A stretch of 64,000 nucleotides of DNA from Miltoncostaea oceani (GTDB taxonomy: Bacteria; Actinomycetota; Thermoleophilia; Miltoncostaeales; Miltoncostaeaceae), in NCBI RefSeq assembly GCF_018141545.1, contig NZ_CP064356.1:1488001-1552000 (forward strand), given 5' to 3'. Shown one piece after another: positions 4,556 to 5,806 of the stretch; within the stretch, counting starts at the first letter, position 1; each line of letters opens with the position of its first letter. The position numbers were made by a program, and so were the translations under genes. The notes beneath the pieces were generated by a model. That model was not told the DNA's origin, searched no databases, and worked only from the letters and a program-made list of their open reading frames with translations.

Positions 4556-4906
4556 ATGACCGTCATCGAGAGCCTTGAGCGCGAGCAGCTGCGCGACGAC
4601 ATCCCGGACTTCAAGGCCGGTGACACGGTCAAGGTCCACTTCCGCGTCATCGAGGGCTCGCGTCAGCGCGTCCAGGTCTTCGAGGGCACGGTCATCAAGC
4701 GCCAGGGCTCGACGAACCGCGAGACCTTCACCGTCCGCAAGCAGAGCTTCGGCGTCGGCGTCGAGCGCACGTTCCCCGTCCACTCGCCGAAGATCGAGAA
4801 GATCGAGCGGACGATGGAGGGCGACGTGAACCGCGCGAAGCTCTACTACCTGCGCGGCAAGATCGGCAAGAAGGCCCGCATCCGCGAGAAGCAGCGCACC
4901 TCGTAG
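4556..4906 (+). CDS. rplS: 50S ribosomal protein L19
   Basis: A 116-residue L19, located at the 30S-50S interface. Diagnostic segments are [42 protein letters not shown] and the C-terminal [17 protein letters not shown]. The ATG at 4556 is preceded by AGGAG at 4541-4545; an earlier GTG frame start would add non-homologous residues. The usual downstream gene for signal peptidase I is absent; instead a strongly folded untranslated segment and then rnhB follow. Confidence 0.96.
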
Positions 4907-4915
4907 TGGCCTGAG

Positions 4916-5053
4916 CCGGGAGTTCGTATGCAGTTCCCGAGCGAATCGCACGCGAGGCAAGGACGCAGGTCAGACCCGGTATCGGGAATACGGGTCGGCC
5001 GAGGACGCCGCATCGCGTAGCGATGCAGCCGGGAAATGCCATCGAACTCCTGG
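4916..5053 (+). ncRNA. Candidate structured RNA between rplS and rnhB
   Basis: This 138-base segment is visibly less GC-rich than its surroundings and folds on paper into a closed multi-stem structure. Outer stem: 4916-4926 with 5043-5053, 11 pairs including one G-U. It continues after a 3x3 internal loop as 4930-4932 with 5037-5039 and 4934-4939 with 5030-5035. Inside are a hairpin at 4973-4996 (GACCCG with CGGGTC, extended by TAT/ATA), a small stem 4997-4999/5007-5009 and a perfect 6-bp hairpin 5010-5015/5021-5026 with loop CGTAG. The heptamer AGGACGC occurs twice (4960-4966, 5002-5008). It lies just after rplS and ends 21 bases before the likely rnhB start. I do not recognise a known RNA family; it could be a cis-regulatory leader for rnhB or a separate small RNA. 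Confidence 0.55.
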
Positions 5054-5074
5054 ACCAGGACACCTAGGTCGCGC

Positions 5075-5806
5075 GTGGCGCCCCGGCGCCGCCCCGGCGC
5101 GCATCGCAGGTCGGCGCGCCTCTTCGCACACGACCGCGCCCTCGGCACCGCCCGGGTCGCGGGCGTCGACGAGGCGGGGCGCGGGTGCCTCGCCGGTCCG
5201 CTGGTCGTCGCGGCCGTCTGCCTCGACCTCGGGGCGCTGACCCCCGCCGGGCGCCGCGCGCTCGGCGACCTCGACGACTCGAAGCGCCTCGCCCACGACG
5301 TGCGCGAGCGCGTCGCCGCCGCGGTCATGCGCCACGCCGAGCAGGTGGTGGTGCTGATGGCCTCGCCCCGCACCATCGACCGCGACGGCCTGCACCGCAC
5401 CAACCTGCGCCTCATGCGGGAGGCCCTGGCGCGCCTCGCGCCCTGCCCGGGCGTCTGCCTGGTCGACGGCTTCCGCCTCGGGCCGACGGCCGTCGAGCAC
5501 CGGGCCGTGGTGGGCGGCGACGGCCGCAGCGCGAGCATCGCCGCCGCGTCGGTCATCGCCAAGACCACCCGCGACCGCCTCATGGCGGGTCCCGTGGCCG
5601 CCGCGTGGCCGCGGTTCCGCTTCGACGAGCACGTCGGGTACGCCACGCCGGTGCACCACGAGGCGCTGCGCGTGGAGGGGCTCTCGCCGCTGCACCGCCG
5701 CTCGTTCAACTCGGCGGCGTACCCCGAGGGCGCGTACGTCATGGCGGGGCCGCCGCCCCCGGCAGGTGGCGCACCCGCGCCCGGAGGCGTCCCGGCCGCA
5801 CGGTGA
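5075..5806 (+). CDS. rnhB: Ribonuclease HII
   Basis: A 243-residue enzyme that cleaves the RNA strand of RNA-DNA hybrids and removes single ribonucleotides from DNA. The active-site DE pair is in GVDEAGRGCLAGP (about 30-42), followed by LDDSKRL, CLVDGF with another acidic residue, ASVIAKTTRDR and HVGYAT. The GTG at 5075 is preferred; an ATG at 5036 in the same frame lies inside the structured segment and would add 13 residues with no family resemblance. The 3-prime end overlaps the convergent yraN by 68 bases, and the Pro/Gly/Ala-rich tail after SFNSAAY is probably non-essential. rnhB-yraN-comM-dprA is a standard bacterial neighbourhood. Confidence 0.92.
   Translation: MAPRRRPGAHRRSARLFAHDRALGTARVAGVDEAGRGCLAGPLVVAAVCLDLGALTPAGRRALGDLDDSKRLAHDVRERVAAAVMRHAEQVVVLMASPRTIDRDGLHRTNLRLMREALARLAPCPGVCLVDGFRLGPTAVEHRAVVGGDGRSASIAAASVIAKTTRDRLMAGPVAAAWPRFRFDEHVGYATPVHHEALRVEGLSPLHRRSFNSAAYPEGAYVMAGPPPPAGGAPAPGGVPAAR

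Follow-up and report, generated by a model that had tools for sequence, protein, structure and literature searches.

Background

The bacterial MITEs RUP, Correia/NEMIS and ERIC have been reviewed (PMC2229807, PMC10969869). They are 100-200 bp long, intergenic, bounded by terminal inverted repeats and flanked by a target duplication. Their transcripts would form long stem-loops, and related autonomous insertion sequences (IS) are found elsewhere. The element described here lies in a 64-kb stretch of the Miltoncostaea oceani genome (64,000 nucleotides, hereafter the window, in which all positions are counted) and resembles them in size, intergenic location, terminal repeats, target duplication and predicted stem-loops, a related autonomous IS being seen for one type of terminal repeat. 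However, it is GC-rich, uses a YTAR target, is low-copy and old in its own genome, carries one core under several terminal-repeat types throughout its class, and shows a G.U-tolerant covariation restricted to one strand.

Small mobile repeats with a conserved RNA structure are also known, as for CIR and Correia (PMC2229807). Like the Caulobacter CIR (PMC2229807), the present element is a dispersed intergenic repeat whose RNA secondary structure is conserved across phylogeny, but CIR consists of two arms and a linker with a GANTC loop motif whereas the present element folds into a single long hairpin, imperfect and with internal loops that are conserved. REP sequences and their associated RAYTs offer another comparison since REPs are likewise dispersed extragenic palindromes; they are however short and tied to Y1 transposases, while the present element is about 160 bp long with terminal repeats and a target duplication (PMC2817692).

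IS5-family elements (NCBIfam NF033581) share with this family the terminal repeats CAGGCTGYTGAA and a 4-bp YTAR target in isolate FR_37. Only the ends are in common, the present element being devoid of transposase, and the type-A ends of the window copy match none of the IS elements found. Integron attC sites and the ends of IS200/IS605 elements are processed by tyrosine recombinases or Y1 transposases, without a 4-bp target duplication. The present element would resemble them if one folded DNA strand were the substrate; an attC-like recombination of this kind would be consistent with the strand bias described below.

The element behaves like a bacterial MITE and shares most of the features by which MITEs are recognized. 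Most copies are 157-164 bp long, within the usual range of about 100-300 bp. They have terminal inverted repeats and a target-site duplication, are present in several copies with insertion polymorphism and, at about 157 bp, are too short to encode a transposase of their own. An autonomous element with the same ends was seen for the type-C ends (in FR_37) while none was found for the type-A ends. In the open-access literature, to which the survey was confined, we found no description of the core sequence or of Thermoleophilia MITEs. What is new is that one core occurs class-wide under several types of terminal repeat, that one strand is selected, and that lineages differ in this respect from resident copies.

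Organization of the element and its insertion site

The genes rplS and rnhB are co-directional and the element sits between them. The whole unit, a MITE-like mobile palindromic element, occupies positions 4907-5062 of the forward strand, as defined by the common boundaries and length of the eight copies in the genome. The window copy measures 156 bp and most sibling copies 157 bp. The left terminal inverted repeat (TGGCCTGAGCCGGGAGTTCG, 4907-4926, forward strand; family consensus TGTCCTGAKTCAGAAGTTCG) has its counterpart on the reverse strand at 5043-5062. Between them lies a conserved core of about 100 nt (4936-5034, forward strand; covariance model R1), common to elements with different terminal repeats. 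On the same strand, a first AGGACGC (4960-4966) forms the left side of a conserved internal loop and a second (5002-5008) its right side, opposite the first. They enclose a central hairpin (4970-4999, forward strand) whose sequence is free to vary among copies while its pairing is retained.

A preliminary description of this DNA had reported a closed multi-stem RNA candidate at 4916-5053. Its 11-bp outer stem (4916-4926 with 5043-5053), its nested stems and both heptamers are indeed present, but the element is larger, extending over 4907-5062 plus the GTAG and CTAG flanks. The segment is indeed lower in GC, at 64% compared to 75% over the whole window, but this is a weak signal since rplS itself is at 65%.

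The left flanking tetranucleotide, GTAG (4903-4906, forward strand), is a copy of the target and includes the rplS stop codon TAG (4904-4906). On the right, the target duplication CTAG (5064-5067, forward strand) follows an extra C at 5063. The layout is GTAG-element-C-CTAG, in which the left target copy has decayed to GTAG; congeners have CTAG at this place, without the insertion. In three genomes of the same genus (G001, G002 and G003) rplS ends in CTAG and is followed by rnhB without the element, which is also missing from the gap in nearly all family members inspected. In most of the relatives inspected rnhB directly follows rplS, so that the earlier comment on the usual place of a signal peptidase gene has no bearing on this locus. 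The element contributes an in-frame ATG to rnhB (ORF 5036-5806, the contributed part being 5036-5062 of the window), and the native rnhB start is likely a GTG immediately past the element.

Two other copies can be compared with their empty sites. The congener G001 has an empty CTAG at the position of copy L003 (CCGCTAG, then the next gene). Copy L004 is arranged as CTAG-element-CTAG, against a single CTAG at the empty site L406 in G003; the sequences are GGCCTAGACCTCGCGGTACCG (empty) and GGCTAG-element-CTAGAACTCGCGGTACCG (filled), and the pair displays a clean 4-bp CTAG target duplication. Flanks were also considered for 91 elements whose terminal repeats match and which have a YTAR on the left; their lengths cluster at 157-164 bp. 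A right-side YTAR is present in 46 of the 91 and the two tetranucleotides are identical in 31 (0 at random offsets), with CTAG on both sides in 28. CTAG is scarce, with 14 occurrences in the window against about 138 expected from base composition, and the flank is a plausible stop codon of the adjacent gene in 42 of the 91 elements. The rarity of CTAG and the stop codon that the flank often supplies thus explain why the element fits so neatly between rplS and rnhB.

Copies, distribution and genomic context

The window element is one of eight copies in its own genome, the seven others being 84-89% identical to it (query 4900-5070). At least eight copies are present in each of G001 and G007 and several in G019. 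The core pattern was found at more than 120 places in named genomes and at dozens in isolate FR_37; among the matches listed, all are Thermoleophilia or otherwise Actinomycetota records. The core covariance model matched 118 of 249 Thermoleophilia genomes, from 11 families, and outside this class 10 genomes from two families; in a draw across the phylum, 275 of 296 genomes had no core-model match. What appeared to be a new RNA gene belongs to a mobile family, found in roughly half of the sampled Thermoleophilia genomes, whose copies would otherwise be reported again and again from many gaps as candidate structured RNAs. Plasmids, phages and IMG/VR gave no match, for which reason a phage or plasmid origin was rejected. 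Assembly contigs stop within elements L058 (end of G005:C95) and L066 (end of G078:C152), so that draft genomes probably contain more copies than their assemblies show.

Orientation was taken from a heuristic gene caller for the 158 copies with callable neighbours: 45 lie in sense and 56 in antisense to them, while convergent genes surround 32 and divergent genes 25. A regulatory role for the host deduced from gene context was rejected given this lack of orientation bias. A riboswitch or other cis-regulatory RNA would also be expected to keep a fixed orientation and position; the orientation of the 158 copies is random and the site is empty in relatives, although a conserved covarying structure, another property of such RNAs, is present. 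A discrete RNA dedicated to the rplS-rnhB locus, as the preliminary description had it, is not supported by a gap that is empty in relatives and a repeat that is dispersed and randomly oriented to host genes; a conserved, covarying single-strand fold is supported.

Conserved fold and internal loop

The segment has a folding energy of -77.4 kcal/mol (z = -6.55), whereas dinucleotide shuffles average -50.3 +/- 4.1 and none of 200 is as stable. It matches no known RNA class, in line with the preliminary description: Rfam 15 gave nothing at gathering thresholds or at E up to 5. In a set of 57 diverse cores, both partners of a pair have changed in 134 cells, against 47 +/- 6 after shuffling, and 93% of cells are paired against 32-44% with slid partners. 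Full-length type-A elements (n=26) show 96 covarying cells against 26 +/- 5 shuffled, and helix 1 of alignment A3 is 91% paired, in keeping with terminal inverted repeats. The covariation looked for at the outset is thus strong, but is seen across copies of a mobile element and not across orthologous rplS-rnhB gaps.

Column conservation is highest at the internal-loop positions around AGGACGC, above that of the stems, and these positions are mostly without Watson-Crick pairing. The pattern used for retrieval fixed the left half of the core, where invariance is partly a matter of ascertainment; the right half lay outside the pattern. In the RNAalifold register the heptamers are opposed as G-C, G.A, A.G and C-G, from which we infer that a GGAC/GGAC motif with tandem G.A pairs, noncanonical in nature, is possible between them. 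Three copies from outside the class (L271, L273 and L276) carry a variant loop, AGGCCGC/GAGAACGC instead of AGGACGC/GAGGACGC, a coordinated change of both loop sides.

Selection on one strand

For each element, the left arm and the reverse-complemented right arm were aligned with symmetric DNA scoring, and isolated mismatches were counted. In 112 non-redundant elements, the stem mismatches read on the AGGACGC strand comprise 374 G.U against 34 A.C; 46-48 positions favour G.U and 11 favour A.C. The G.U excess extends into the terminal repeats. As equal numbers of G.U and A.C are expected for a symmetric DNA palindrome, this ratio indicates selection for the fold of one strand. Natural variation, as judged from the aligned elements, shows that the fold of one strand only is kept.

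The stems of subfamily consensus sequences contain 50 G.U and no A.C, while mutations private to single copies within subfamilies include 45 that create G.U and 21 that create A.C, plus 56 transversions, in a set of modest size chosen in part by covariance-model score. A first, smaller set gave 18:16 (G.U:A.C), and the tightest clusters 7:6. The fold is kept by lineages and largely not by single copies, although some constraint on resident copies is possible since private mutations still lean towards G.U. Together with random orientation, the weak bias of private mutations relative to lineages points to selection acting mainly at propagation rather than on a host regulatory RNA. Because lineages show G.U far in excess of A.C and resident copies only a weak bias, selection acting on the mobile element can be distinguished from selection on the host, which opens a direct question: must one strand of a MITE fold for it to move? 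Preservation of the one-strand fold during the spread of the family suggests that folding is part of the way in which the element is copied. The folded strand may be ssDNA or RNA, both being compatible with the sequence data.

Terminal-repeat types and possible transposase partner

The common core is found with the terminal-repeat types TGTCCTGAKTCAGAAGTT, CAGGCTGTTGAAGAATGACG, GAGCTCGTTTCAGAATGACG, GGAGGGCTTGGCGGAACGG and GGGGCCTGTCCAGAAAGTGG. FR_37 contains about 90 matches to the end of the second type (CAGGCTGTTGAAGAATGACG). This isolate also holds an intact IS5-family element with a 394-aa transposase (NCBIfam transpos_IS5_4) and ends CAGGCTGCTGAAAAAG, identical YTAR flanks being present in 7 of its 9 copies. 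The type-C MITEs resemble it in their ends and in their YTAR target, a likeness that links one terminal-repeat type to IS5-family transposition. A transposase with type-A terminal repeats, the type of the window copy, was not found. A search of the genome of the window for the FR_37 IS5 transposase gave no homologue at E <= 1e-15, in agreement with the age of the element copies there, and the single PF01609 match of that genome lacks convincing type-A ends.

IS701 was also considered as a partner and rejected: the IS701-type elements of FR_37 have ends TAGTACTTTGTTA and have merely inserted at the CTAG of the MITE. For four of the five (L307, L308, L309 and L310), the insertion point coincides with the CTAG that flanks a MITE copy. 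MITEs therefore serve in FR_37 as landing sites for another YTAR-targeting IS.

Propagation of the element

The most probable explanation, in our opinion, is that the window element is an old copy of a non-autonomous, MITE-like element moved in trans by an IS5-type transposase, and whose propagation requires a folded single strand in cis. Mobilization would be ensured by an IS5-type DDE transposase that targets YTAR. The element inserted into the CTAG that holds the rplS stop codon and so left both reading frames intact. One folded strand, either strand-specific ssDNA or RNA, would be required in cis during propagation, and resident copies would then decay under little constraint, without a fixed role for neighbouring genes. 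A broader reading is more tentative and may well not hold: the family could represent a DDE-type bacterial mobile element whose propagation needs one folded strand, the fold and not a gene being selected, with the same core under several sets of terminal repeats class-wide. The structure concerned would be the predicted tandem G.A internal loops facing the twin AGGACGC.

It is rather unlikely that the element moved as ordinary dsDNA and that the fold of its transcript was selected, for example as an RNase-III-type stem or a 3'-end structure making insertions tolerable or useful to the host. The one-strand G.U bias suits RNA well, the private mutations still lean towards G.U (45:21), and NEMIS/Correia transcripts have been proposed as RNase III targets (PMC2229807). 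However, constraint is much weaker on private mutations than on lineages and, orientation to neighbouring genes being random, transcription would yield the wrong strand for about half of the copies. Even less probable is an ordinary symmetric palindromic MITE with a functionless core, in which the arms would pair simply because the sequence is palindromic and is corrected by hairpin template switching. Arm complementarity can persist without selection in long palindromes, and short derivatives limited to the terminal repeats do exist, but such a symmetric process predicts as many G.U as A.C mismatches (374:34 observed) and leaves aside that the mostly non-Watson-Crick internal-loop positions are the most conserved. 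A small RNA copied by a reverse transcriptase and then integrated would account for one-strand folding and for selection at propagation, yet terminal inverted repeats and 4-bp YTAR duplications fit DDE transposition, and we consider this very improbable. Least credible of all is a cis-acting structured RNA of the rplS-rnhB operon (riboswitch, terminator or leader), the original proposal, which could invoke the stable fold, the covariation and the place between two co-directional genes but is already contradicted by the gap without element in three congeners and in almost every family member inspected, and is further opposed by the lack of orientation preference in 158 copies and by the absence of an Rfam match.

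Short derivatives and nested copies

Short derivatives of about 40-96 bp with the same terminal repeats but no core were observed in G002, G001 and G050 (L202:779-820, L222:1501-1552 and L203:1426-1521, respectively); the ends alone thus occur as mobile remnants. FR_37 also contains nested copies (L084, L087, L095, L096, L103, L110, L179 and L184) in which an element of one terminal-repeat type interrupts the core of another type, with little variation in the position (GGCAAG/GACGCAG). These correspond either to independent insertions or to an amplified composite.
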